Shown in pieces: positions 42,173 to 55,946 of a DNA stretch of 64,000 nucleotides. The stretch covers positions 1-64,000 of the forward strand of contig NZ_JAFEUS010000002.1 in NCBI RefSeq assembly GCF_027853335.1, written 5' to 3'. The first letter of the stretch is position 1. The number at the start of each line of letters is the position of its first letter. The stretch comes from Leucobacter sp. UCMA 4100. Its GTDB lineage: Bacteria; Actinomycetota; Actinomycetes; Actinomycetales; Microbacteriaceae. The notes under the pieces are model-generated. The model made no database searches. It had not been told where the DNA came from and worked only from the letters and a program-made list of their open reading frames with translations. Position numbers and translations under genes: made by a program.

Positions 42173-43036
42173 TTACGTCAATTCTAGCTGGTGCTGAGGC
42201 GCCGAGTCTTCGAGGAGACCCCGCGCAATGAAGTCTCGCGCTACTCTTGCCGCTTCGAGACGTGCGTCATCGGTCGCGACATCGAGTAACTCGGCGAGAG
42301 CACCGGCAATTTCACCGAGCGTGAGGTCGCCATCGCAGGCTCCCAGCATTGCGCTCGTGAAGGTGTCGACCGACTCGAAGCGTTCGATACCGTCACGCAA
42401 CACAAATGAGATGCTCGTGATTTCTTCGGTGCCAGGCACAAGCGTGCGCACCTCTTCAACACCATCGCAAAGCGAGTAGTGCTTATCGAGGAGTGCGTCG
42501 TCGCTCAGTTGCGTCGCGGCTGCGTGCTCAGCGAAGGCTGCAGACCAAGCCGAACCAAAATGCGTCTCGCCGCCCAACTGCCCTGCGACGCGCTCAGCGT
42601 GCACGAACGCGCGTTCGCCGCTTGCCACCTTGCGCAACATCACGTAACCAAAGCACACTCGTGAAACGTTACGGCTGGTGAGATCGGCGATCCACTCTGA
42701 TAAACGGGTGTGGTATCGAGTCTCGTGCTCGCGCAGCCCGCCGTCGCGCAACCACAGCGAGGCGTACTCGAGCGGGGTCTGCCTGCCGCGCTCGATGAGC
42801 CATGCCGAGCATGTGTCACCCGCCTCAGGAACGAGCGAGGCGAGCGCCTGCTCACCGTCTTCGCTGCCCCACACGAACTCCCAGTTCGCGAGGGTGACGA
42901 GGCATGCACCTTCGTTGAGCACGGCAGGAACCTCAGCGAGCAGCCGCCTGAGCAGCCGATCACCCGGTTCGTTTGACGAGCGGTAGACGAACTGTTTCTC
43001 CGCATCGGTGTGTTGTGGCGAAATCACGAATGGCGG
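42173..43036 (-). pseudogene. C-terminal half of a methyltransferase gene split by the island
   Basis: In-frame remainder of a class I SAM methyltransferase, beginning P-P-F-V-I-S-P at the NPPF motif IV and running about 287 residues to the original stop. The matching N-terminal half is at 54482-55171. The reading frame continues into the island, where an ATG at 43123 could give a 316-aa fusion protein with 29 extra residues, but without the SAM-binding half it should be inactive. Together the halves make about 517 aa, the length of the actinobacterial DUF7059/DUF7782 methyltransferases, an identification made from memory. Confidence 0.85.
43028..43036. repeat. Left junction of the island (att-like repeat copy)
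   Basis: GAATGGCGG, matching 8 of 9 bases with GAAGGGCGG at the right junction. It encodes PPF of the methyltransferase on the minus strand. The core of recombination is presumably inside it. Confidence 0.65.
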
Positions 43037-43393
43037 TTCCCTGCATTGTTCGCATGTGTTGTAACTTGACTCTTCGACCGGCCTGACCGCTACTTTGAAA
43101 AGTAACCATCTGTCCCTAAGCATCCGCGCGTCAGAGTCAGGATGTCTGTACTTCCCTCTTTACGCACCCCAGAGCGCCCGGACGAAAATCGAATCGTCTC
43201 CGCGATCGGGGCGCTAACAGTTGCAAGACACCCCCCATGATTTTTCTCCGCATGGACATAGCACGAGACTGTAGACAGGTTGTCCTCGCCATCAGCTGGG
43301 TAGTCGGCAAAAGGAGTGCGTAACCATCAATCGAATGTAAAGAATCTGATACATTGAAGAATAGATTAACTTGCACCTAATTCACGAGGATCA
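43037..43393. promoter_or_regulatory. Left end of island, leader of the defence operon
   Basis: About 357 bp without a convincing gene. The last 80 bp are A/T-rich (GAATGTAAAGAATCTGATAC nearby) and should carry the operon's promoter; CACGAGG precedes the ATG at 43394. It may also hold recombinase-binding sites, which I cannot identify. Confidence 0.5.
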
Positions 43394-44053
43394 ATGACAG
43401 CACTGACACCAGATGAGCAACTCATCAAGTCGCGCCATCGAGTGAGAGCGCATGGTGAGGTATTCACCCCAAGGTCGATGGTCAATCGGATGCTTGACCT
43501 CGTGAAGCCAGAGTTAGAAACCGGCCCTAACTTCGTAGACAAGACGTTCTTCGAGCCTGCCGCTGGCGACGGAAACTTCCTGATCGCCATACTTCGCCGG
43601 AAGCTGCACGCCATCGAGAAGCGCTACCAGCCGACAGTGTGGCAGACCGAATCCTTGTTTGCCCTCGCTTCGATCTACGCTATCGAGCTCCTCGAAGACA
43701 ATCACCGGGCAGCGCAAGAATCGCTTCTAGACATTTTCGTCGAGTTCCACCAACGCGCCGGAAACTCCTGTGGACCACGCACGAACCTCTACCGTTCGGC
43801 AGCCAAGCTTATCGAGCGCAACATTCTCCAGGGCAACACCCTCACAGGTCTTGATGCCGCTGGTGCAGAGATTCAATTCTCGTGGTGGCATCGCGTGCTC
43901 AACGAACCAGGCATGGTCCAGCGAGAACCATTCTCTCTTTCATCATTGCGAAACTCATCTACTGGCATAGGGATGTTCGATTTTGCGATCTACGACTCCT
44001 ACGCAGTCTGCCGCGTCGAGCACGTCTACAAAGAAGTGAAGGCTAATGTCTAA
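43394..44053 (+). CDS. Partial N6-adenine DNA methylase-like protein
   Basis: 219-aa protein with the N-terminal features of a DNA adenine methylase: G-E-V-F-T-P-R-S-M-V-N-R-M-L-D (residues 21-35, motif X) and F-F-E-P-A-A-G-D-G-N-F-L (52-63, motif I for SAM binding). The usual NPPY motif IV is not found; at the expected place near residue 200 the sequence is F-D-F-A-I-Y-D-S-Y. It ends 8 nt into the next gene (frames overlap), so the operon is tightly coupled. It could be a SAM-binding helper subunit of the system, or a truncated methylase. Confidence 0.8.
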   Translation: MTALTPDEQLIKSRHRVRAHGEVFTPRSMVNRMLDLVKPELETGPNFVDKTFFEPAAGDGNFLIAILRRKLHAIEKRYQPTVWQTESLFALASIYAIELLEDNHRAAQESLLDIFVEFHQRAGNSCGPRTNLYRSAAKLIERNILQGNTLTGLDAAGAEIQFSWWHRVLNEPGMVQREPFSLSSLRNSSTGIGMFDFAIYDSYAVCRVEHVYKEVKANV

Positions 44054-47000
44054 CCCGAAGATCAGCACTTTCCACGAAGTCACTCCGTACGTATACTCGT
44101 GGACTACCCCCGACATTCCCAAGTACGCAGGTTGGGAGAAAATCGGATACACCGAGCAGGCCGGCGGCCCAGATGTACGCATCGCGCAGCAGGCATCCCA
44201 ACTGTCCGTGCGCAAGGAAAAGTTGTGGGCGCTGCGGGCTTTTTTCCAGACTGAACGCGGTGGACGATTCACCGACAAGGACTTCCATACCTACTTGAAG
44301 CAGCAGGGCATTGAGCGGGAATACAACCCCGATGCCCAGCCAAAGCGCACCGAGTGGCATCACTTCGCCGACGCTCCGAGAACCTCCAAGGATTACTTCC
44401 TTCAGTTCGCCAGCCAGGATGAAGTCGATATGCAGCGCGTGGGCACTGATGAGTACAGCCTACGCCCCGAACAGGAAGCTGCGGTCAAACAGGCGCTGGA
44501 AGCGTTCGCTGCTGGACATGACGAAGTGCTCTGGAATGCCAAGCCACGTTTCGGCAAGACCCTGACAACCTACGACCTTATGCGCCACCTTGAGGCTCGC
44601 AAGGTCCTCATCGTGACCAACCGTCCTGCTATCGCCAACTCATGGTTCGACGATTTCACCCGCTTCATCGGGCATCAGACTTCCTATGTTTTCGTCTCAG
44701 AATCAGCATCGCTGGCTGGCCGCGAGACAATGACCCGTGAGGACTGGCGCAAGTACTCTGCCCAGAATCAGGACGAGGACCCTCGCGTTGTGGAGTTCCT
44801 TTCGCTGCAGGACCTCAAGGGTTCCCAGTACTTCGGCGGCCACCACAAGAAGCTGAAGCACATCGCCGATTTCGAGTGGGACCTGCTGGTCATCGACGAA
44901 GCCCACGAGGGCATCGACACCACGAAAACCGACATCGCGTTTGACAACATCACTCGCACGCAGACGCTGCACCTGTCCGGCACCCCGTTCAAGGCCTTGG
45001 CCTCAGGGAAGTTCGATCAGGAACAGATCTTCAACTGGACCTACGAAGACGAACAGACTGCTCGCGAAGAGTGGTCGGATGAGTCGCGGGACAATCCTTA
45101 CGCATCCCTGCCTACGCTGAACATGTTCACGTACCAGATTTCGCGCATGATCACCGATCGTCTTGCCCAGGGCGTAGCGATCTCCGAAGACGCGGCCAAC
45201 ATTGATTATGCCTTCGACCTCAACGAGTTCTTCACGACCAAGGACAACGGCGTTTTCGAGCACCGCGAGGACATCCTCAAGTTCTTGGACTGCCTGACAC
45301 ACAATGAGAAGTACCCGTTCTCCACGCCTGAACTACGCGAAGAAATCCGGCACTCCTTTTGGCTGCTGGACCGTGTCGCTTCGGCCAAGGCGCTCGAAAA
45401 GCTGTTGAAGCAACACGAGGTGTTCAAGGACTACACGATCATTCTCGCTGCTGGCGATGGCAAGAGCCACGACAGCATGGACACGGCGGTTTCCGAGAAG
45501 TCGCTGGACAAGGTGCGAAAGACTATCGCTGAAGCCGAGAAGAACGGCGGCAAGACGATCACTCTTTCTGTCGGGCAGCTGACCACCGGAGTCACCGTGC
45601 CGGAGTGGACAGCGGTGCTGATGCTGTCGAACCTTTCCTCGCCGGCACTGTACATGCAGGCAGCTTTTCGTGCTCAGAATCCCCATACCTTCATGCGGGG
45701 CGAACATGTGTTGCAGAAGAAGAACGCCTACATCTTCGACTTTGCACCCGAGCGAACCCTCACGATTTTTGACGAGTTCGCCAACAATCTGCGCTCCAAC
45801 CAATCCGGCAGCCCGGAGGCGCGTCAAGACAACATCCGCCGCCTACTGAACTTCTTCCCGGTCATTGGTGAAGACTCAGAAGGCCGGATGGTGGAGCTTG
45901 ACGCCGCCCAGGTGCTCACCATTCCGCAGGTTTTCAAGGCCAAGGAGGTGGTGCGACGTGGGTTCCTCTCGAATCTGTTGTTCGATAACGTGGCCGGAAT
46001 CTTCCGCTACTCGGAGCACGTCAAGAAGATTCTTGAGAAGCTCCCGGAAGCCAAAGAAGGCAAGCTCAAGAGCGGCACTACGATCTCCCTTGATGAACCA
46101 GTACCTTCAACCGACCGCGAAGGCAACGTCCAGGTTGATGTTGACACGGTCATCAACCCGAAGGTTGCTGAACTTGGCGCTCCTGTGTGGAGCAAGGAAG
46201 AAGCGCCTGCCATCAATCCAGCGAAGCCACCGACTAAGTTAGCCAAAGAGCTCGCCAGCTTCGTCACTGAGAAGACTAAAGACATTCGTGAGAGACTCAA
46301 AAACGAATACGGCCTGACTGCCGCCCAGGTGAACCGGGACATCAAGCAGACTGAAGCCAAGGTGGAGACTGCTGTTGAGCGTGCCATCGTCGAAAAGAAC
46401 ATTGCTGAGAAGCACCTCGACGACGAACGGGAGAAGGCCACCACTGACGAAGAAGTGGCAGCTGTCGAAAAAAAGAAGGCCGAAAATGATTCTGTGTTTG
46501 AGACAGAGCTCATGGCCATTCTGAAGAAATCTTCCGAGGACGTGGCAATGGAAACCGTTACCCGTGAAGAGACCAAGAAGGAGCAGAAACGTGCCAACAC
46601 CACGATGGACGATGCTCGCTCCCATCTGCGCGGTTTTGCACGCACCATCCCTCTGTTCCTGATGGCATATGGACGCGAGGACATGCGTCTGGCAAACTTC
46701 GATGACCACACCCCAGATGAGGTCTTCAAGGAAATCACCGGTATCAGCGAATCCGAGTTCCGCATCCTCCGGGACGGCCAGGAAATAGTCGAAGAAGACG
46801 GGAAGGTAGTCCAGATCCCTGGTTTCTTCGATGAGGCTGTATTCGATCAGTCAATCCAGGAGTTCCTTGCAAAGAAGAAAGAACTCGCTGATTACTTTGA
46901 CAACTCGCTCACCGAGAACATCTTTGCCTACATTCCACGGCAGAAGTCGTCACTGGTGTTCACGCCACAGGCTGTGGTGAACCAAATGGTTGACTTGCTT

Positions 47001-47348
47001 GAACAGGAAAACCCAGGAATCTTTGAGGATCCGTCAAAGACCTTTATCGATCCTTTCTCAACGGCAGGTCTGTTCATCATGGAACTGGTTCGTCGCCTGG
47101 ATTCGGGGCTTGCTACTACGATCCCTGATCAGCACCAGCGGCTCAAGCACATCTTGACGAAGCAAGTCTTCGAGATGAGCCATAACCAGATTCTCCATGA
47201 CATCACCATCGAAGCTGTCTCTGGCGGCCTGGAAGAACGCAAAGAGTGGATGACGGAATCAGGCCATTTCCGGGTGCAGAACGTCACCGAAATGAGCACA
47301 GCAGAACTCGCGAAGCTTGTCGATAACATGCTTACCGAAAGGAACTAA
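44046..47348 (+). CDS. GIY-YIG-like nuclease, DEAH helicase and methylase SAM-binding half
   Basis: 1100-aa multidomain protein. Residues 15-110 resemble a GIY-YIG (T5orf172-like) nuclease: Y-V-Y (15-17), K-I-G-Y-T (32-36), R45 and E103 of T-E-W. Then come SF2 helicase motifs: P-E-Q near 141, Walker A-like A-K-P-R-F-G-K-T (165-172), D-E-A-H (284-287), S-G-T-P (311-314) and Q-A-A-F-R (538-542). A Glu/Lys-rich helical region (about 740-870) follows. The end has methylase motif X F-T-P-Q-A-V-V-N-Q near 972 and motif I F-I-D-P-F-S-T-A-G-L-F near 1000-1010, but no NPPY. The following gene supplies NPPY. The order nuclease-helicase-linker-methylase is that of Type ISP enzymes. Confidence 0.85.
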   Translation: MSNPKISTFHEVTPYVYSWTTPDIPKYAGWEKIGYTEQAGGPDVRIAQQASQLSVRKEKLWALRAFFQTERGGRFTDKDFHTYLKQQGIEREYNPDAQPKRTEWHHFADAPRTSKDYFLQFASQDEVDMQRVGTDEYSLRPEQEAAVKQALEAFAAGHDEVLWNAKPRFGKTLTTYDLMRHLEARKVLIVTNRPAIANSWFDDFTRFIGHQTSYVFVSESASLAGRETMTREDWRKYSAQNQDEDPRVVEFLSLQDLKGSQYFGGHHKKLKHIADFEWDLLVIDEAHEGIDTTKTDIAFDNITRTQTLHLSGTPFKALASGKFDQEQIFNWTYEDEQTAREEWSDESRDNPYASLPTLNMFTYQISRMITDRLAQGVAISEDAANIDYAFDLNEFFTTKDNGVFEHREDILKFLDCLTHNEKYPFSTPELREEIRHSFWLLDRVASAKALEKLLKQHEVFKDYTIILAAGDGKSHDSMDTAVSEKSLDKVRKTIAEAEKNGGKTITLSVGQLTTGVTVPEWTAVLMLSNLSSPALYMQAAFRAQNPHTFMRGEHVLQKKNAYIFDFAPERTLTIFDEFANNLRSNQSGSPEARQDNIRRLLNFFPVIGEDSEGRMVELDAAQVLTIPQVFKAKEVVRRGFLSNLLFDNVAGIFRYSEHVKKILEKLPEAKEGKLKSGTTISLDEPVPSTDREGNVQVDVDTVINPKVAELGAPVWSKEEAPAINPAKPPTKLAKELASFVTEKTKDIRERLKNEYGLTAAQVNRDIKQTEAKVETAVERAIVEKNIAEKHLDDEREKATTDEEVAAVEKKKAENDSVFETELMAILKKSSEDVAMETVTREETKKEQKRANTTMDDARSHLRGFARTIPLFLMAYGREDMRLANFDDHTPDEVFKEITGISESEFRILRDGQEIVEEDGKVVQIPGFFDEAVFDQSIQEFLAKKKELADYFDNSLTENIFAYIPRQKSSLVFTPQAVVNQMVDLLEQENPGIFEDPSKTFIDPFSTAGLFIMELVRRLDSGLATTIPDQHQRLKHILTKQVFEMSHNQILHDITIEAVSGGLEERKEWMTESGHFRVQNVTEMSTAELAKLVDNMLTERN

Positions 47349-47350
47349 TC

Positions 47351-48385
47351 ATGACCAAGAAGTTCGATGTAGTCATCGGAAACCCACCATATCAAGATGA
47401 AGCTGTGGGCGGTGCCACCAGTGCGCCGCCTATCTATCCGCAATTCATGGATGCGGCATACGAAATCGGCTCGAAAGCAGTTCTGATTACACCCGCCCGT
47501 TTCCTGTTCAACGCGGGCTACACAACGAAGACATGGAACCAGAAAATGCTCGATGACAAACATCTGAGTGTCCCGGTCTACGTACCAAATAGCAATACAC
47601 TGTTCCCAGGAACGGACATCAAGGGAGGCGTCGCTGTCACTTATCGCGATTCTGAGCAAAATTTGGGTCCACTTGGAGTCTTCACCAAGCACGAAGAGCT
47701 CACTAGCATCATGCGAAAAGTTACTTCATTCGGTGGAACTTCATTTGCGAGTCTCGTGACCAAGCGGGATGCCTACAAATACACGCACAAAATGCACGAG
47801 GAACATCCAGAAGCGTCGGAAGCTATGTCGCATTCTGCCCAGCACATCGTGATTGCTAACGCTTTCGAAAAGCTCCCTTTCCTATTTACCGCTGGTAAGC
47901 CGGATTCGAGTGATAAATATGTACGGATTATGGGTCTATCGGGCAATAAGAGGGAAATTCGCTGGGTTCGTCGTGATTTCATCACAGGGCCAAAAAGCTT
48001 TGAACATTTCAAAGTGGCCGTCGCAAAAGCTAATGGTTCTGGGAATTTTGGCGAAGCTCTTTCCACCCCAGTTGTACTCGAGCCGCAAGTCGCGACTACT
48101 CAGACATTCCTGACTGTTGGAAGCTTTGAGAAGTCTGAAGAGGCTTCTGCTTGTCTCAACTACATCCGAACGAAGTTTGCTCGTGCACTTCTTGGCGTGT
48201 TAAAGATTACGCAAGATAATCCGTCTCGTGTCTGGGAGCATGTCCCGGCACAGGACTTTTCGTCCGAGTCTGATATCGATTGGTCGAAGTCAATCCCCGA
48301 AATTGACCAGCAGCTGTACAAGAAATATAATCTCAGCGCTTCGGAAATGGACTTCATCGAAACCAATGTCAAAGCAATGAGTTGA
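47351..48385 (+). CDS. Eco57I-type adenine methylase catalytic half (NPPY)
   Basis: 344-aa protein starting M-T-K-K-F-D-V-V-I-G-N-P-P-Y-Q, with motif IV NPPY at residues 11-14 and no upstream motif I, which is in the preceding protein. The rest resembles the C-terminal part of Eco57I-like methylases, including target-recognition sequence and a tail with D-I-D-W-S-K-S-I-P-E-I-D-Q-Q-L-Y-K-K-Y. It is 2 bp after the helicase gene, with AAGGAAC before the ATG. The two should associate to form a working methylase; this is inferred from complementing motifs. Confidence 0.85.
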   Translation: MTKKFDVVIGNPPYQDEAVGGATSAPPIYPQFMDAAYEIGSKAVLITPARFLFNAGYTTKTWNQKMLDDKHLSVPVYVPNSNTLFPGTDIKGGVAVTYRDSEQNLGPLGVFTKHEELTSIMRKVTSFGGTSFASLVTKRDAYKYTHKMHEEHPEASEAMSHSAQHIVIANAFEKLPFLFTAGKPDSSDKYVRIMGLSGNKREIRWVRRDFITGPKSFEHFKVAVAKANGSGNFGEALSTPVVLEPQVATTQTFLTVGSFEKSEEASACLNYIRTKFARALLGVLKITQDNPSRVWEHVPAQDFSSESDIDWSKSIPEIDQQLYKKYNLSASEMDFIETNVKAMS

Positions 48386-48396
48386 GCACGACAGTC

Positions 48397-48630
48397 ATGG
48401 CTGAAACCGATTCAACCGCCATGTCTGGGATCGCCATGCAGGTCTGTGTTGCGCGCAAAGACCTCGGGTGGTCTCAGGGCCTACTCGCTGCGAAGGCGGG
48501 TGTATCCCGCCCGTCGGTGGCACGAGTCGAAGCAAGTGACGCTGTCAGCACGGATACGTTGAGCAAGATTTCCGAGGTGCTGGGCCTTAAGCTTACCCTC
48601 GCTGAGGTGCCACCCGACGACGATCAGTAG
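48397..48630 (+). CDS. Small helix-turn-helix (XRE-like) protein
   Basis: 77-aa protein from the ATG at 48397 (or 82 aa from TTG 48382, which overlaps the methylase stop). A helix-turn-helix of XRE type is plain: A-R-K-D-L-G-W-S-Q-G-L-L-A-A-K-A-G-V-S-R-P-S-V-A-R-V-E. It may be a controller protein of the restriction-modification operon, since such small XRE proteins time expression of the nuclease. It ends 4 bp before the convergent coiled-coil gene. Confidence 0.78.
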   Translation: MAETDSTAMSGIAMQVCVARKDLGWSQGLLAAKAGVSRPSVARVEASDAVSTDTLSKISEVLGLKLTLAEVPPDDDQ

Positions 48631-48634
48631 ACCG

Positions 48635-49033
48635 TCAGCTACCGTCTTTCGGCCGCCGGATGCCAACCACCTTGGACTTGTCCGTCCTACCATGCTGTTG
48701 CTCCAGTGACAGCACGTTGATAACACGCTCCAGCTGCTGCCGGTCGTTGGTCAGCTCGCGGATCTCTGCTCTGAGCCGCGTGATCGTCTCGTCGCGTTCT
48801 TTGAGCTGTTCGCGTAGCTTGACCACCACGGCAGGTTCGCCGCCAGTGAGCTCCATGCGGACCTTGAACTCGTCTTGCAGGTCGGTGAACTTGTGGGTCA
48901 GCAGCCAGCGTTTGACCCCGGCTTCGTTCGCGAGTGACTTGATGGTGAGCTTGCCGTCTGAGCGCAGTGGCTTCCCCTCGACCAGCCTGGTCATGGCATC
49001 ACGGATTGCCTGGCGCTGAGTTTCGTCAGTCAT
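48635..49033 (-). CDS. Small coiled-coil protein of the recombinase group (TnpC-like)
   Basis: 132-aa protein with a wing-like N-terminal part (L-T-I-K-S-L-A-N-E-A-G-V-K-R-W-L) and a coiled coil of heptad type (about residues 67-110, LREQLKERDETITRLRAEIR). In Tn554-type elements a small protein, TnpC, accompanies the two recombinases and affects the orientation of insertion. It overlaps the third recombinase by ATGA. The TnpC parallel rests on size, place and coiled-coil content only. Confidence 0.7.
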   Translation of the reverse strand: MTDETQRQAIRDAMTRLVEGKPLRSDGKLTIKSLANEAGVKRWLLTHKFTDLQDEFKVRMELTGGEPAVVVKLREQLKERDETITRLRAEIRELTNDRQQLERVINVLSLEQQHGRTDKSKVVGIRRPKDGS

Positions 49034-51126
49034 AGCTCCACCCCTGTTTCATCGTGGGCCTGTACCAGTGCCTCCAGCAAGCTGACGCGCTGCTTCGAAC
49101 GCTCACGCAATGGCAATGGCACCGCCTCGGATTCTGCTTCCCGCTTGGACTCGTCAATCAGCTGCTGGATGCGTTCGATGTGCTCATCGGTCCGCGCAAT
49201 GTTGGCACACCGTGAGTCGCAGGCTGTCGCGTCCGGGCTCTGCCCTACAGACGTGCTCACTTTCCGGTCTGGGTGGCACAGGGCCTTGGCGGGGTCGTAA
49301 CAGCAGGCGAGAATCTGCGGCCCGTTGTCGTAGATACGCAATGCCGGATTCCGCATCAAGGATGCGGCTTGTTTAGCGTTCATGACCTTGCCAGAGTACA
49401 CATCCCGGTATTCTTCCACCGCACGCTTGTACCGTTCGGCAGCAGGTCCGCTGACGTGGCTCCCGTTGTCAGCGGCATCCACTGCACGGGCCAGCCCATC
49501 TGACACGCTCAGGGCTTCCTCCATGGGAAACAGATCGCGTAACCCTGCCGATACCCTGGAACCGTAGCCATCAGTGGTGTAGCTGTGCAGATGCCCGTAC
49601 TGGACACCCAACGCGACCCGGCCACCTGGCAGTCGGTAGATGAACCAGGCCAGGGTACGCCGGAACCGACGGAGGACAACCAGGCCGGCCGGGTCTTCTG
49701 GGATGATTTCGTGTTCGCGTTCCAGCCGCTCGGCCTGCTCGTTGCACCAGTCGATGAGCCAGCCGACATTCGCCTTAGCACTCTGGTTACTGACGCTGGT
49801 TCCTCTTGTTGCTGAAGGCCTAGATATGACGTTAAATTCGCTCTGCGGGAAGAGCAATTCTTGACCGTGCAGTCGTTCAGCAATATGAATAGCATGAGCG
49901 ACAGGTCCGATCACAGTCCACGGAACCTCTCGGGTCTTGCCTCCAGGAATGAGATTCCCATGCTCATTAGTAGCGGATTTGAAAGTCTGACCCTCGATAC
50001 GGAAACTCGTCGATCCGTCGTCGTCTGTGATTTCCGTGCAGCATCCTCGTTTGAGCGCTCTGACTTCTTCACCTCTCATCCCGCTCAGATAGCAGACGAC
50101 CACTAAGCAGGCAGTAAGCACCAGCCGCTTCAGGCGGGTAGCTTCGTAGTAGTCGATTGAATCAGTCCATGGTTTGCCGTCGATAGTTCCCATCGGCTTG
50201 TAGGGCAGTGGAGCAGAGGCTTCGTTGGATACCTCGTATTTGTGGTGAATCCCTTTCAGGGCGAACTGGGGTACGCCTAGTGTCGCGGAGAGGTATTCAG
50301 CTGCTACAGCTGTGCTTCTTCCTTGCCGTCGATTCCTTACGATCGTTGCTGGTAACTTCTGTCCAGTTAGCTGGAGTTCTCGGATATATGAATTGATGAT
50401 TTCCAACCCGTTCGATGGCTGTTCCTTGGGGATTGAGGACTTCATCTTGTCTCGCACCGAGGAGGCTTCGATGACATCGGTGGACAGATCGTTGACCAGT
50501 CGTTGACACCAGATCAACAGTGGCGACATGGTGGCTGGATGAATTGGCTCAGTCTTGTTTTCCGCAGTCCAGTCAGAGGCCCCCACGATGTCTTCGAGGT
50601 TTCCCAGCCGCTCCCAGGGCGGGGACACAAGTCGGTAGTGGGCAGGCAGAAATGGACTAAGCAACCAGACGCGGCTCACCGCCAGTAACTGCCGCCGCTT
50701 GGGGTTGTAGGAGACCTTGCTGTCAGCAATGAGATCCGCGTACTGGTCCAGCGCTTCCGGGGTCAGATCCGACAGGTTCCGTTCTTTACTAAACTCAAAC
50801 CATCTCAGGAACGGTAATATGTCGTGGTAGGTTGTCCGCACGCTCTGCACCGATAACCGGCTGCGAATCGAATGCTTGCGGTTCATCTGGTTAATTGGCG
50901 TTTCCTCATTCAGAAGCAACCAGAGGAAATGCTTACAAAAGTCCCTAGTCCTAGGTGGCACGTTCGCAAAATGAAAGTTGATCAATGGGGCCGTTGACTT
51001 CTGCCGGCTGACATCAAGCGTCCACACGCCGTCGCTAAAGACCGAGTCTGACAGCTCCGGATGGACTTTCGTGTGCCCCTGGATAGGCAAACGTTGGGCG
51101 ACCTCAGCGTGCCTTTGCGTAGTCAT
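49030..51126 (-). CDS. Tyrosine recombinase-type protein, third of the trio
   Basis: 698-aa protein. The recombinase core is visible as S-G-M-R-G-E-E-V (R351), F-R-R-T (R486 and R489, with Arg at the usual His of HxxR), G-H (H512) and a Y521 in T-T-D-G-Y-G. The N-terminal part has the core-binding domain (V-R-T-T-Y-H-D-I-L-P-F-L-R-W-F). It overlaps its neighbours by ATGA at both ends. The changed H-to-R site is also seen in some large Tn554 TnpB-like proteins, to my recollection. Confidence 0.8.
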   Translation of the reverse strand: MTTQRHAEVAQRLPIQGHTKVHPELSDSVFSDGVWTLDVSRQKSTAPLINFHFANVPPRTRDFCKHFLWLLLNEETPINQMNRKHSIRSRLSVQSVRTTYHDILPFLRWFEFSKERNLSDLTPEALDQYADLIADSKVSYNPKRRQLLAVSRVWLLSPFLPAHYRLVSPPWERLGNLEDIVGASDWTAENKTEPIHPATMSPLLIWCQRLVNDLSTDVIEASSVRDKMKSSIPKEQPSNGLEIINSYIRELQLTGQKLPATIVRNRRQGRSTAVAAEYLSATLGVPQFALKGIHHKYEVSNEASAPLPYKPMGTIDGKPWTDSIDYYEATRLKRLVLTACLVVVCYLSGMRGEEVRALKRGCCTEITDDDGSTSFRIEGQTFKSATNEHGNLIPGGKTREVPWTVIGPVAHAIHIAERLHGQELLFPQSEFNVISRPSATRGTSVSNQSAKANVGWLIDWCNEQAERLEREHEIIPEDPAGLVVLRRFRRTLAWFIYRLPGGRVALGVQYGHLHSYTTDGYGSRVSAGLRDLFPMEEALSVSDGLARAVDAADNGSHVSGPAAERYKRAVEEYRDVYSGKVMNAKQAASLMRNPALRIYDNGPQILACCYDPAKALCHPDRKVSTSVGQSPDATACDSRCANIARTDEHIERIQQLIDESKREAESEAVPLPLRERSKQRVSLLEALVQAHDETGVEL

Positions 51127-52955
51127 GCGTCTAGCTCCCTTCCGATGAGTCGAGAAATCAAATCCTCAGTTTCCGTTGTCTTCTGCAACCGTGCTCCAGC
51201 GATCTCTGCCTTGGTGGCAAGCCGAGACAAGAGGTTCCGCAGCCTTGCCTGGTGCATTGCAAACTCCCGGTTCCACCGCTCTTCGCTGACCGTGGACGAG
51301 ATGGACTGCAAGGCATCAAATAGCACCACAAGCTGGGGCAAGTGCCGTGGAGTGGCAACAGCGTTGTCACAGCCGAGGCACATCATGAAGGAAGCCGCAC
51401 AGGCACCGTTCTGGTCTGTATCGAAGGGGCTGTGGAAGAAGTCAGTGCAGGCGGCAGTAGCCGTATCCAGTGCCCCGTTGAGCAGCGACTGGGCTGCCTC
51501 CTGGCCGATACCCAGCCGTGCGGACAGCGCTTCCACATGGGCTCCGTCCGCCGGCAGCTCTTGTGTGGTGACGGTGCGGATTTCGACAAACCTCTGTGCG
51601 TGCTGGAGAGCTTCTTGCTGCCCTTGCAAGAGCACCGGTACCGCTTGCTTGACAGTCGCTGGCTCGGACCGCCGGTAGATTTCCTCGCTTACCGTCTCGG
51701 AGTTCTGCCGGCTCCTCTGGCTGTGTACCTGCTCGGTCAGCCGGAGACGGCGAAGATTCAGGTGAAGTGGAGTACCGTCGTCACCGAGCACTGGAGCCAG
51801 CTTCTCCAAGGACTTCACAAAGTAACCGCTCGTTGACCAGTCCGTAATGAAAATCCCGGAAGGATGCCTGGTCGTGTGTGTGCCCAAAGCAATAAGCAAC
51901 TGGTTTGTGGGGAACCCTAATTGCTCAAGTGTGTAGCGAGCTGGCTGGGTCATCCGAATAGCCCGCTCCATGAGACGGGATTCGTTTCCCGCGAAGTTGC
52001 TGGTGAAATACCTTTTGGCTGGACCACGCCGGGGTTTGTCCAAATGGGCCGTATACACCGATCCGCTGGACTTGATGGGGATCCCAGACGCCAACTCGGG
52101 AACTTCCATGCCGAACACTACCGACGAGTTGTAACCCCGCTCGCAAATGAACAGCACTACCAGGGCCAAGATTTCCGCAGGACTTGGAAACAGCAAATTC
52201 CTCGACCGTTGATGAGGTTCAAGACCGAAGTGCTCTTTCAAACCTGAATGGTGCGGAAACTTCTCCATGACCTTCGGTATCTCACCGGTGGTCAGCAGAT
52301 GGTCAAGAATCTGGCCTTTGCTCCAATCCTTCCATCTCGCCCTATACGGTTTATCCTCAGGATCTTCTACTCCGTTCCAGTAGTCGATCAGGGTCTTCAC
52401 GTTGGACGTAATGCGCTTCTCAGCCTCCATCACGTAGCCCGTATACACACGCTTGATCCGGGCAAACTCTTCACGGGAATAGGCGTTGTAATCACGGGAC
52501 TTTGGCTTCGGTGCCCTGGTTCGTAGCACCAGTTGGGTAGCCTCGGGAAGACCTTCAACGTCAGCAAGCAAGGATCTGCTCAGATTGATCTGTCCTGGCC
52601 ATTTCACCCGGCTCTCAAGGTCGGCACGCCAGGAATTCCAGACCTCCGGTGTAATGCCCTCAATGCTCTCTACATCTGGGTGATTTGCTTCCACGAACTT
52701 CAGGAATGTACCAATCACGCTCTGCCCTGCCGCGCAGCTTCCAGCACGCCTCCAGCGCCCACCCGAGCTGGTGGCTTTGATGAACGCAAGGATCAGAGAC
52801 TGCCGAAGCGTCCCGACTAATGGGTACCGGCTGAAGTCGAAAGAACCCAGCGACTCACCGTTCTCACCAACAACAGTAACCACAGTTTCTTTGCTGTCCG
52901 TCCTCTTCGGGCGACGATACGCCTCGGACGGAAACTCAGCTCTGAGTCGTGGCAT
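51123..52955 (-). CDS. Recombinase-like protein of the trio, degenerate catalytic site
   Basis: 610-aa protein in the middle of the recombinase set. It has a core-binding-like N-terminal region and a L-R-R-L-R-L-T segment that echoes the R-R-F-R-R-T of its partner, but no plain R-HxxR-H-Y set was found. A cysteine cluster (C-A-A-S-F-M-M-C-L-G-C, about residues 509-519) suggests metal binding. It begins 1 bp after the first recombinase ends. It is probably an architectural or targeting partner rather than the catalyst. Confidence 0.72.
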   Translation of the reverse strand: MPRLRAEFPSEAYRRPKRTDSKETVVTVVGENGESLGSFDFSRYPLVGTLRQSLILAFIKATSSGGRWRRAGSCAAGQSVIGTFLKFVEANHPDVESIEGITPEVWNSWRADLESRVKWPGQINLSRSLLADVEGLPEATQLVLRTRAPKPKSRDYNAYSREEFARIKRVYTGYVMEAEKRITSNVKTLIDYWNGVEDPEDKPYRARWKDWSKGQILDHLLTTGEIPKVMEKFPHHSGLKEHFGLEPHQRSRNLLFPSPAEILALVVLFICERGYNSSVVFGMEVPELASGIPIKSSGSVYTAHLDKPRRGPAKRYFTSNFAGNESRLMERAIRMTQPARYTLEQLGFPTNQLLIALGTHTTRHPSGIFITDWSTSGYFVKSLEKLAPVLGDDGTPLHLNLRRLRLTEQVHSQRSRQNSETVSEEIYRRSEPATVKQAVPVLLQGQQEALQHAQRFVEIRTVTTQELPADGAHVEALSARLGIGQEAAQSLLNGALDTATAACTDFFHSPFDTDQNGACAASFMMCLGCDNAVATPRHLPQLVVLFDALQSISSTVSEERWNREFAMHQARLRNLLSRLATKAEIAGARLQKTTETEDLISRLIGRELDA

Positions 52956-52956
52956 G

Positions 52957-54444
52957 CTAACGAACTCCCTTGTTGACTAGAGGTGAGGACAGGATTTCTC
53001 TGGACAGTACAGCCGAGAAGTCGTGCTCGTCGTTTTCGCCGGCGTTGAGGAACAAGTCAACCTGCAATCCCTGGACCGGTTCCAAGTACACTTGCCTGGT
53101 TATTTCGACGTTCACATGACCGAGCATGGTCTGTACCAGAACCCATGGGTCTCCAAAGAGCATCCGGTACTCGCGCCGTTCCTCCGGCGTGATGCCAAGC
53201 CGGGTATCGGTGGCGTGGATGAGCGACACCAGCATTCTCAAAGCGAATGAGTGACGCAGCATGTGCGGAGTGCAGGCTATCGGAACCGACTGGGACCGAC
53301 AGCGTTGTGAAGCTGTACTGAACACCATCTCCCAGGTCATGTACTTCATCGGCAGACCCGATTCAGCCAGCCAGACCATTGCTGGCTCAAGCCCCGCATC
53401 GCCTTGGATGAACAGGCGTTCGCGTTCTTCGGCGTAGAGGTCGTCCAGCGAGCAAGCGGTCACGCGGCCGTTGTCATCGATGAGCTTGGCTCGGCGGTTT
53501 GCGTCCACGGACTGAAGCACCAGTTTGCCAGAAAGATTGTCGTACCGCCCCTCCTTCTGGGCCCGTGAAACAGCTTCTGCGCGAGTGGTCAACTTGTAGG
53601 CCCCGAGGCCTTGCAAGGCTGCCCTCGACACCCAGAAGTTACGACCTCGGCCTTTCGCCACTGCGGTCGCCAGCCGCGCCTGGTGGAAGTTCGTACGTTC
53701 TTGGAGTGCAGGGACCTCGCACCACAGCAGCGTTGCGCCTTCACGGAGCCGGAGCCCGGAATCCCAGAGCAGGTCGGCGAAACAGATGTTGCGGTCTTCG
53801 TTCCTCCCGCGCCAGTTGTGCCTCTGCCGGCCTTCCAAGTTGTAGCCGGACAAACCAACATGCTTCCACTGGCGGTAGGCCTCGGGGGTGAGCCACTTGA
53901 CCCGGTTGTTCCGGGCGTTCTTGGGCATCAGCGGTACAGATACACCGGCCCGGTTCGAGGAGCTGTCATCAGTGAACGTTTGAATGGGAGAGATGCGGAT
54001 GGTGCCGCGTCTAGCGTGCCACTCGTAGAATCGGCGGCAGGCTGCAAGCTCTCTGCTGAATTTGGCCCCAGAGATCCTGGAGGGATTCCGTTCATCGCGG
54101 CGACGCCAGTATTCGTAATCTTCAAATAGTTCGACTGTGCATTCTCGCCAGCCAATGTGCTGGCTGTACAGGAAGTTGAAGTGTGTGCGCAGATCCTTGG
54201 CGTAGGAAACTTGTGTCGCGCGGGATAGACGGCGGAACGACCGGTCGTGCAGATAGGCACTAACATCTAGGTCCGGGTAGCCATCGGGCTTGAGGAGGAA
54301 GAGCTCGTCGTTGCGAAGCCCCGCTTCCTCTTCTCGCTGGGCGAGATTCAGGAAATCTTCAGGCAGCCAGCTGGAAGGAGTGTCTGGTCGGCGTGGCCGG
54401 GCGCTGCGTAGTCTCCATCCGGCAATCTCGTCGTTGCTCGTCAT
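52957..54444 (-). CDS. Tyrosine recombinase, catalytic member of the trio
   Basis: 495-aa tyrosine recombinase with all catalytic residues: R232 in S-G-L-R-L-R, H394 and R397 in P-H-M-L-R-H, H443 in L-G-H and the nucleophile Y453. The N-terminal domain holds a SAM-like core-binding part (Y-A-K-D-L-R-T-H-F-N-F-L). It is the first gene of the set and starts 38 bp inside the right junction, on the same strand as the interrupted methyltransferase. AGGG precedes the ATG at modest distance. Confidence 0.88.
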   Translation of the reverse strand: MTSNDEIAGWRLRSARPRRPDTPSSWLPEDFLNLAQREEEAGLRNDELFLLKPDGYPDLDVSAYLHDRSFRRLSRATQVSYAKDLRTHFNFLYSQHIGWRECTVELFEDYEYWRRRDERNPSRISGAKFSRELAACRRFYEWHARRGTIRISPIQTFTDDSSSNRAGVSVPLMPKNARNNRVKWLTPEAYRQWKHVGLSGYNLEGRQRHNWRGRNEDRNICFADLLWDSGLRLREGATLLWCEVPALQERTNFHQARLATAVAKGRGRNFWVSRAALQGLGAYKLTTRAEAVSRAQKEGRYDNLSGKLVLQSVDANRRAKLIDDNGRVTACSLDDLYAEERERLFIQGDAGLEPAMVWLAESGLPMKYMTWEMVFSTASQRCRSQSVPIACTPHMLRHSFALRMLVSLIHATDTRLGITPEERREYRMLFGDPWVLVQTMLGHVNVEITRQVYLEPVQGLQVDLFLNAGENDEHDFSAVLSREILSSPLVNKGVR

Positions 54445-54481
54445 GGCAGCACCCTACACCCCAACACGGACATTTTGGAGG

Positions 54482-54490
54482 GAAGGGCGG
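54482..54490. repeat. Right junction of the island (att-like repeat copy)
   Basis: GAAGGGCGG, 8 of 9 bases shared with the left junction repeat. It lies in the PPF codons of the N-terminal methyltransferase half. Confidence 0.65.
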
Positions 54491-55171
54491 GTTGGTGACC
54501 ACGAGATCGAAGGTTTCGCCCGCGACCGGGTCGAAGAGATCGCCGAGGCGTACCTCGATGTTTTCGACCTCATTGAGCACCGCATTAGCGCGAGCAAACA
54601 TGATGGCACGCTCTGAGACGTCGGTTGCGACGACTTGGTCTGCGTGCTGAGCCACAATGAGGGCCACGACTCCGCAACCGGTACCGATTTCAAGCGCACT
54701 GGCAACGGCATGGTGCGGGATGGCTTCAATGAGCGAGCGAGTCGCCCCACCAACGCCCATGACGTGATCGGGACGAGCTTCGGCCTGTCGCAGATGGTCG
54801 TCGAGATCGGAAAGAATAAACCACGACCCGAAGGGTGTGAGGCTCACGGCAGCACGTACGGTCGAATCGTTGCGACCGGTGCTCACAAGCCCGAGCGTCT
54901 CAGCTCCCTCGAGACCGAGCGAAGAGAAAGCCTCTGAAGCTTCAGTGCGCGACACGTCGAGCCCAAGCGCGAATAACCTCATGAGCGTGAGCGTCGCGGC
55001 ATCGATCTGCCCCGCGTGCTCGCGATCAGCGAGTTCGCGCTGCGCAGGAAAAACGATTCCCCTGCGCAGCGCGTCGCGAGCGTCGGCAGCGACGAACGCT
55101 TCAAACTGTTCAGCCGTGTATGAAGACCGCAGAAGGTCTTCGCGAAGACGGTTCAGCGCTGCTGGCTGCAC
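54482..55171 (-). pseudogene. N-terminal half of the methyltransferase split by the island
   Basis: About 230 residues of a class I SAM methyltransferase: a GTG start at 55171 (V-Q-P-A-A-L-N-R-L, 5 nt after the SDR stop), an N-terminal helical domain, SAM motif I A-L-E-I-G-T-G-C-G-V-V-A-L and motif IV D-L-V-V-T-N-P-P-F. Then the frame enters the island and stops at 54359 after about 41 foreign residues. With the fragment at 42173-43036 the original would have N-P-P-F-V-I-S-P. The frame open upstream of 55171 overlaps the SDR gene and is not used. Confidence 0.88.
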
Positions 55172-55175
55172 GAGG

Positions 55176-55946
55176 CTACTTCGCGACGGGAGCGAAGCCC
55201 GAGACGTCACCGACGTAGCGGGTGTTGTTCTCGGCGATGGGCTCGACCGCCGCGAGAGCGACCTCGGCGGCGAACTCAGCGACGTTGTACAGCTTGCCGG
55301 CCGACTCGCGGCGCTCTGAGATCGCACCGGGGTTCGAACGCTCGAGCAGGGTCGCGGTGATCGTGCCCTCAATCATGTCACCTGAGACGACAACGAACTC
55401 AATGCCGCGCTCGGCGAGGCCCGGGATTCGCTCGCGCAGAGCGTCTTCACCGGCACGTTTCGAGAGCGCTACTGGTTCGTACTCGGGCATCGTTGGGGTC
55501 GTGTGAATGAAGTGTGCCTGGTGGCTCGTGACGAACACAACGCGTGAGCCCTCGTGCATGAGCGGTAGCGCCGCGTCGAGCATGGCGAGCTGTGCATCAC
55601 GGTTGAGCTTGAGCGCGTAGTCTTCAGCCATGCCGCCCTCCATGCCTCCGGAGGCGTTGAGCACGAGCACATCGAGCTGGCCGTACTGGGCCTTGACCTC
55701 GGCCATCATGCCGCCAACCGATTCAGGGTCAGTGAGGTCGGCACCGATCACGAGTGCCTCGACGCCTTTCTCACGAAGGCTGCTCGCGAGCTTCTCGGCG
55801 CGCGCAGCCTTGTTGCGGTAGTTGATAACGACGTTCGCGCCAGCCTCGGCAAAGTATGTGGTCGTGTCGGCGCCGATGCCACGCGATGAACCGGTTACAA
55901 GAACGTTTTTACCGGCGAGCTGGCCAGGCGCGAGAGGGTTAGTCAC
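55176..55946 (-). CDS. SDR family oxidoreductase with altered active site
   Basis: 256-aa SDR protein. The cofactor loop T-G-S-S-R-G-I-G is near residues 18-25 and N-A-S-G-G replaces the usual NAG. The Lys in L-S-K-R-A-G-E is present, but the Tyr four residues before it is Val (V-A-L-S-K), and the nearest Tyr is in E-Y-E-P three residues earlier. Catalysis may be changed or lost. It lies between lnt and the split methyltransferase on the same strand. I recall related actinobacterial proteins with the same Y-E-P-V-A motif, unverified. Confidence 0.8.
   Translation of the reverse strand: MTNPLAPGQLAGKNVLVTGSSRGIGADTTTYFAEAGANVVINYRNKAARAEKLASSLREKGVEALVIGADLTDPESVGGMMAEVKAQYGQLDVLVLNASGGMEGGMAEDYALKLNRDAQLAMLDAALPLMHEGSRVVFVTSHQAHFIHTTPTMPEYEPVALSKRAGEDALRERIPGLAERGIEFVVVSGDMIEGTITATLLERSNPGAISERRESAGKLYNVAEFAAEVALAAVEPIAENNTRYVGDVSGFAPVAK

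Follow-up and report, generated by a model that had tools for sequence, protein, structure and literature searches.

Which of two SAM-binding halves serves a single catalytic half when an adenine methylase is apparently distributed over three genes? The question is raised by an operon of four genes, here designated A to D, in Leucobacter sp. UCMA 4100. It lies in the stretch of DNA analysed as a whole, 64 kb in length and hereafter referred to as the window, with the following layout:

43394-48630, forward strand: operon A-B-C-D
43394-44053, forward strand: gene A, 219 aa, predicted SAM-binding half of an adenine methylase
44046-47348, forward strand: gene B, 1100 aa, predicted nuclease, SF2 helicase, linker and degenerate SAM half
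47351-48385, forward strand: gene C, 344 aa, predicted catalytic half (NPPYQ) and target-recognition region of an adenine methylase
48382-48630, forward strand: gene D, 82 aa, HTH_3 protein (Pfam HTH_3, E 2.3e-11)

All four genes are real, intact open reading frames. A and B share 8 bp, a gap of 2 bp separates B from C, and C in turn overlaps D. Homologues of D are located directly 3' of C in three other loci, and judging from its sequence, D is a possible controller of the operon. A simple promoter and terminator scan performed at chance level. A sequencing frameshift at the border between B and C was considered and ruled out: the genome carries two identical copies, the same break is found in other genera (Arthrobacter and about 18 other actinobacterial loci), and the ATG of C is preceded by a Shine-Dalgarno-like sequence of its own, AAAGGAA. 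In PADLOC, B and C map to different parts of one 1359-residue profile, REase_MTase_IIG, so that fused relatives have already been recorded.

The product of gene B is predicted to consist of four parts:

B residues 14-107: GIY-YIG (T5orf172-type) nuclease domain, from profile matches of relatives and conserved residues
B residues 137 to about 600: SF2 helicase, from a ResIII match at residues 137-315 (Pfam, E 4.5e-17)
B residues about 740-860: putative helical linker, a helix-rich sequence judged by eye
B residues about 860-1065: degenerate SAM half, from the sequence and the alignment of relatives

A DEAH helicase had been proposed for this protein in the original prediction, and the ResIII/SF2 match bears this out. 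The same holds for the GIY-YIG-like N-terminus, for which the evidence comes mainly from the family. The window protein matched T5orf172 and MUG113 marginally, just below the Pfam cut-offs (E 0.0035 and 0.0019, respectively), and by itself gave no GIY-YIG match above the cut-off in Pfam, NCBIfam or PHROGs, so that relatives were needed; T5orf172 was matched by 12 of 13 family members, with a best E value of 1.5e-11. The conserved Y, KIG and R and the two acids of the GIY-YIG superfamily, in their T5orf172/MUG113 form, are all present in B, namely as Y17, K32-I33-G34, R45, D77 and E103. Across 151 relatives, R45 is conserved in 99%, D77 in 100% and E103 in 99%, and for Y17, K32, G34 and T36 the figure is 95%, with gaps accounting for all remaining sequences; the helicase is conserved as well. 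The helix acid of GIY-YIG domains is usually Glu; throughout the B family, it is the Asp at position 77. Pfam detected no Mrr match in the N-terminus, and PDB sequence searches with B, C and the nuclease alignment returned nothing useful, including no relative of the nuclease alignment. From this conservation, we take the N-terminal domain of B to be a GIY-YIG-type nuclease that is probably active.

Gene C begins with MTKKFDVVIGNPPYQ, matches Pfam Eco57I (E 3.2e-15) and aligns over its full length with the PADLOC profile MTase_II PDLC03375 (E 2.3e-31); the (N/D)PP(Y/F) motif is kept in 142 of its 148 relatives. Gene A displays the complementary set of motifs, including X (EVFTP), I (FFEPAAGDGNFL), II (YAIELLEDN) and III (NILQGNTL), and is devoid of motif IV. 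It has weak matches to Pfam MmeI_Mtase and N6_Mtase and to PADLOC MTase_II, and is found in almost all complete loci. Among 136 relatives of A, motif I and the motif II acid are each kept in 134. Motif IV occurs in the ORF of A exclusively in A-C fusions, with 22 such fusions called, L156 among them being a class V gene called in error (see below), against none of the 114 other cases. As a separate observation, C and A match the 383-aa phage family phrog_11371 in PHROGs at positions 191-259 and 283-367, respectively, which hints at a phage protein with the methylase halves in permuted order.

The C-terminus of B carries a second sequence of the same kind, VFTP...FIDPFSTAGLF, and profile cross-hits with E values down to 3e-12 relate it to A. 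The Asp of motif I is retained in this half. However, the first glycine of motif I is replaced in all 134 readable cases, by Lys in 115 and by Thr in 19, and the motif II acid is found in none of the 115 readable cases. The half has a strongly kept signature of its own instead, with KSG or TAG followed by GxAPT, GIAIT or EMSHN. Because the first motif I glycine and the motif II acid are lost, the half in B does not appear to be a normal SAM site, and only A looks competent for SAM. These results recast the original prediction in part. The gene following B indeed starts with NPPY, as the opening of C and its Eco57I match confirm. The SAM-binding methylase half that had been placed in B does resemble a motif I half, yet it is degenerate, the canonical one being gene A. 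Likewise, the break of the methylase at the B/C border is real but is not a simple cut, considering that the only canonical SAM half resides in A. Gene A itself, although included in the interval described, had been given no role, and is identified here as the intact SAM half by the 134 of 136 relatives keeping its motifs.

To place the operon in its family, a six-sequence alignment of B was run over GTDB genomes and viral contigs. This gave more than 550 related places in the former and 64 loci in the latter, and plasmids carrying B-family genes were found in Arthrobacter, Enterococcus, Lactobacillales, Bifidobacterium and Variovorax. In one of these, the conjugative resistance plasmid pE1123 of Enterococcus (L013, 39910-55170), a fused-class copy adjoins optrA and fexA, and in Bifidobacterium longum plasmid p1 (L014), an IS256 transposase gene separates the A and C genes. 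AbiR of the lactococcal plasmid pKR223 was considered as a possible older designation of this family. The loci were scanned with five profiles, one each for the nuclease, the helicase, the C-terminal half of B, A and C, and layout classes were counted over 140 rows. Because resemblance to B was the basis on which loci were collected, the following counts are biased and do not represent natural frequencies:

Class I, A / B / C: 27 rows, among which are the window and 19 mostly actinobacterial rows forming a block
Class II, A / B-C fused: 11 rows
Class III, A-C fused / B: 22 rows, among them the miscalled class V gene L156
Class IV, A / C / B: 36 rows
Class V, A / half-C fused / nuclease-helicase: 37 rows
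Class VI, A / nuclease-helicase-C: 7 rows

Thus, C is found free, fused to A or fused to the half from B. The class V half-C proteins (L117, L120 and others) contain, in addition, a Cys-rich insert (C..C, YCGAS) between the SAM half and NPPY, which from its sequence is possibly zinc-binding. In a tree of the helicase, no fewer than 10 changes along well-supported branches are needed to account for the A-C fusion label, and the A-C fusion L082 clusters among systems with C joined to B; single placements in this tree are unsure owing to its long branches. The tree indicates that A-C fusions arose repeatedly.

The natural fusions allowed both pairings to be modelled with AlphaFold2 as single chains, which represent proteins of the relatives rather than those of the window. 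In the model of the A-C fusion L082 (585 aa, pLDDT 73, pTM 0.67), the strands of A are followed by those of C in methylase order, yielding a full methylase with a recognition domain, at moderate confidence (pLDDT 73) and with an 88-residue disordered linker. Its comparison with CamA gave a Z score of 19.1 (392 residues, 4.8 A, over residues 20-569), followed by LlaGI (18.6), LlaBIII (17.9) and TaqI (15.9). The B-half-C fusion L117 (529 aa, pLDDT 83.5, pTM 0.82) was likewise modelled as a complete fold, with Z scores of 22.4 for CamA, 19.3 for LlaGI and 18.2 for TaqI. Hence, in the models, A-C and B-half-C fusions of relatives are both complete m6A-methylase folds. Since C occurs free or fused to either partner, and both kinds of fusion model as complete folds, the methylase is best described, on present predictions, as two rival SAM halves, A and the half in B, and one catalytic and target-recognition half, C. 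The known fold offers the catalytic half space for a single SAM-half partner, and therefore A and the half in B should exclude each other on one C.

The same models bear on the opposite assignment, in which the functional methylase would consist of the half in B and C, by analogy with the fused proteins of class II, and A would be an accessory or decaying copy. Classes II and V contain the two parts as a fusion in canonical order, the fused parts are predicted to fold into one domain, and the half in B keeps the Asp of motif I; because the B-half-C model is complete, B may have a non-canonical SAM site. Nevertheless, we regard this assignment as unlikely, given that the half in B lacks the first motif I glycine and the motif II acid family-wide, that A keeps both and accompanies nearly every complete locus, and that fusions of A to C have arisen again and again. 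Both models also resemble BrxX/PglX (Z 16-20), the methylase of a non-cutting system, which would suit a BREX-like or abortive defence with a helicase and a methylase sensing phage DNA and no sequence-specific cutting. Such a function is hard to reconcile with the near-invariance of the GIY-YIG-type residues in the 151 relatives. Furthermore, BREX combines PglX with BrxC, PglZ and partners, and PADLOC found no BREX component among the eight element proteins scanned, from A to TnpA. We therefore consider it rather improbable.

The reading that we favour, and consider reasonably likely, is that of a mobile, ATP-dependent R-M system with one target-recognition unit, in which A and C would form the methylase and B would be a restriction arm that docks C. 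It builds on the genes, the motifs, the loss of SAM motifs in the half of B, the interchangeable fusions and the folds in relatives, all of which are sequence- or model-based. From these we infer that A associates with C in the Leucobacter strain itself, with C contributing target recognition as well as the catalytic half with NPPY; because A would supply the SAM-binding half to C, the two would constitute an m6A methylase marking host DNA. The SAM-deficient half-fold at the C-terminus of B would hold C beside the SF2 translocase and the GIY-YIG nuclease. The helicase of B would then act as the motor and the GIY-YIG domain would cut unmodified DNA after translocation, so that cutting would need both ATP and translocation.

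How does such a system compare with those already described? The original prediction had noted the domain order of Type ISP enzymes with a nuclease other than Mrr, and this comparison survives in the T5orf172-type N-terminus, the helicase and the methylase parts. As in LlaGI and LlaBIII, the predicted order is nuclease, SF2 helicase, a putative linker in the place of the helical coupler, gamma-type m6A methylase and recognition domain, and the models of relatives match the corresponding parts of these enzymes with Z scores of about 18-19. However, Type ISP enzymes have an N-terminal Mrr-type PD-(D/E)XK nuclease and are single polypeptides, whereas here the nuclease is of the GIY-YIG type, three genes are involved and there is an extra SAM half, A, which even the fused B-C relatives still carry as a separate gene. 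Thus, the window system is not Type ISP, differing in both nuclease type and chain number. In Type IIG systems, one recognition unit serves both activities, and by the fold of the relatives, C would here be the only gene with a recognition region; unlike in Type IIG, the chain is split in the window, although it is fused in the class II relatives.

A further parallel is OspHL35III, described as a system with a translocase, a GIY-YIG nuclease and an m6A methylase and called Type IIG-like (Blow et al. 2016, PMC4752239, S4 Fig). It likewise combines an m6A methylase/recognition protein, the single recognition unit, with a translocase and a GIY-YIG nuclease, but its methylase is complete and MmeI-like, and its translocase and nuclease are separate proteins (PMC4752239). 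In the window, one chain contains both nuclease and translocase, and it is the methylase that is divided into halves. In contrast to the Rhodococcus locus L180, Pfam detected no MmeI_TRD in C and only a weak MmeI_Mtase match in A; the window system, lacking an MmeI-type recognition domain, is not OspHL35III-like. B and C, as well as A proteins from relatives, are recognised by the PADLOC profiles REase_MTase_IIG PDLC03626 and MTase_II PDLC03375 and PDLC03390, which means that portions of the family have already been catalogued, albeit as separate or single-chain methylases with no model for a three-part one. The suggestion that this layout belongs to no named class and may be a new R-M subtype is accordingly not upheld: the fused homologues correspond to PDLC03626, the pieces to PDLC03375 and PDLC03390, and OspHL35III has been described. 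The family is large, partly filed already, and not a new class. A three-part methylase is not described in the literature searched, which mostly left out subscription papers and is thus weak evidence.

The operon is part of a mobile element that the original prediction did not notice and that was revealed by blastn as a second copy in the same genome, at C2:1229825-1241286 (L016/L017), with 99.98% identity. The element in the window and its surroundings are as follows:

43032-54493, no strand: mobile element of 11,462 bp, with the R-M operon as cargo beside a recombinase module of four genes
48635-49033, reverse strand: tnpD, 132 aa, with a coiled-coil C-terminus, in the Srap/GinD position
49030-51126, reverse strand: tnpC, 698 aa, recombinase-like (RxxR, GH...Y), in the IntB position
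51123-52955, reverse strand: tnpB, 610 aa, in which a motif scan did not find GH...Y, in the Tfp position
52957-54444, reverse strand: tnpA, 495 aa, tyrosine recombinase (Phage_integrase E 1.6e-07; HxxR, GH...Y), in the IntA position
54494-55372, reverse strand: N-terminal part (DUF7059-MTS) of the interrupted methyltransferase, broken at NPPF
42173-43031, reverse strand: C-terminal part (DUF7782) of the interrupted methyltransferase

The two copies differ at two positions, both at the recombinase-side end. When the flanks of the window site are joined, they restore an in-frame DUF7059-MTS-DUF7782 methyltransferase (VVTNPPFVIS). The second copy lies inside a Type I hsdM, between hsdR and hsdS, and joining its flanks gives a complete HsdM (N6_Mtase E 1.8e-60, TMNPPYGGTE). 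In both cases, then, the insertion point falls on the NPP(F/Y) codons of a methyltransferase gene. Such a motif, damaged in one case, also adjoins the element in five plasmid relatives (L178, L179, L180, L181 and L182), whose TnpA is 46-53% identical: NPPF in Rhodococcus PE41, Rhodococcus Y6 and Mycolicibacterium, DPPF in Gordonia, and NPCS, the damaged form, in Ornithinimicrobium. No NPP motif was found at the element end in six plasmid relatives with 40-45% identity or in 13 genome loci with 34-39%, and accordingly the motif IV target is a trait of the close recombinase subfamily. In viral contigs, TnpA had one weak partial match.

The order tnpA-D, the protein sizes and the motif scan agree with IntA-Tfp-IntB-Srap, and the element is SE/GInt-like, placed beside these elements by gene order and not by sequence. 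Elements of this type have a four-gene module of two RHRY recombinases, an RHRY-less recombinase-like protein and a small coiled-coil protein, and a 6-bp footprint is copied from the recombinase side of the donor to the far side of the new site; SEs have been reported only from Gammaproteobacteria and GInts from gamma- and betaproteobacteria (Idola et al. 2023, PMC10214605). The present element apparently shares the succession of recombinase, Tfp-like protein, recombinase and small coiled-coil protein, and may share the footprint pattern, whereas it is actinobacterial, carries R-M cargo and has methyltransferase genes, at their NPP(F/Y) codons, as its target. In copy 2, the hexamer on the far side, CCGCCC, is identical to the one on the recombinase side of copy 1. 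The SE rule would predict this with copy 1 as the donor, but the match is weak because the proline codons leave only about 16 possible hexamers. Streptococcal ICEs with serine-integrase triplets also insert in hsdM (PMC4701971) and similarly disrupt a Type I methylase gene, but do so with serine integrases, unlike the tyrosine recombinases here, which are aimed at motif IV of several kinds of methyltransferases. An element targeting methylase motif IV is not described in the literature covered, mostly without subscription papers, so that this too is weak evidence.

Since the element that carries it occurs in two genomic copies, the operon could be a selfish addiction module that keeps the element in place and has little effect on phages. 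Relatives of the element carry other R-M genes, such as an MmeI-type methylase and a helicase near the module in Rhodococcus Y6 and a PLD-nuclease helicase and a methylase in Gordonia. However, an addiction role does not exclude restriction, and the operon is also found on plasmids where this recombinase module does not adjoin it; as an account of the operon, we consider this one highly improbable.

The preferred reading, an R-M system with A and C as the methylase and B as the restriction arm, can be extended, with more tentativeness, to a scenario that is possible but doubtful. C would be a shared specificity subunit that swaps partners, forming a methylase with A and, with the SAM-deficient half of B, the recognition part of a nuclease-translocase. 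In that case, the modifying and the restricting complex would be alternatives that compete for C, and the carrier, by aiming at motif IV codons, would disable resident methylases, including that of a Type I R-M system, while bringing its own system.

We found no report of an adenine methylase with its SAM and catalytic halves as separate, re-shuffled gene pieces in combination with a second, degenerate SAM half tied to the restriction motor. Owing to the repeated natural fusions, the choice of partner is open to test by simple deletions and single mutants. The carrier, in turn, provides a recombinase with an unusual conserved target, and an R-M-carrying element landing on the near-invariant motif IV codons would show one route of R-M replacement.
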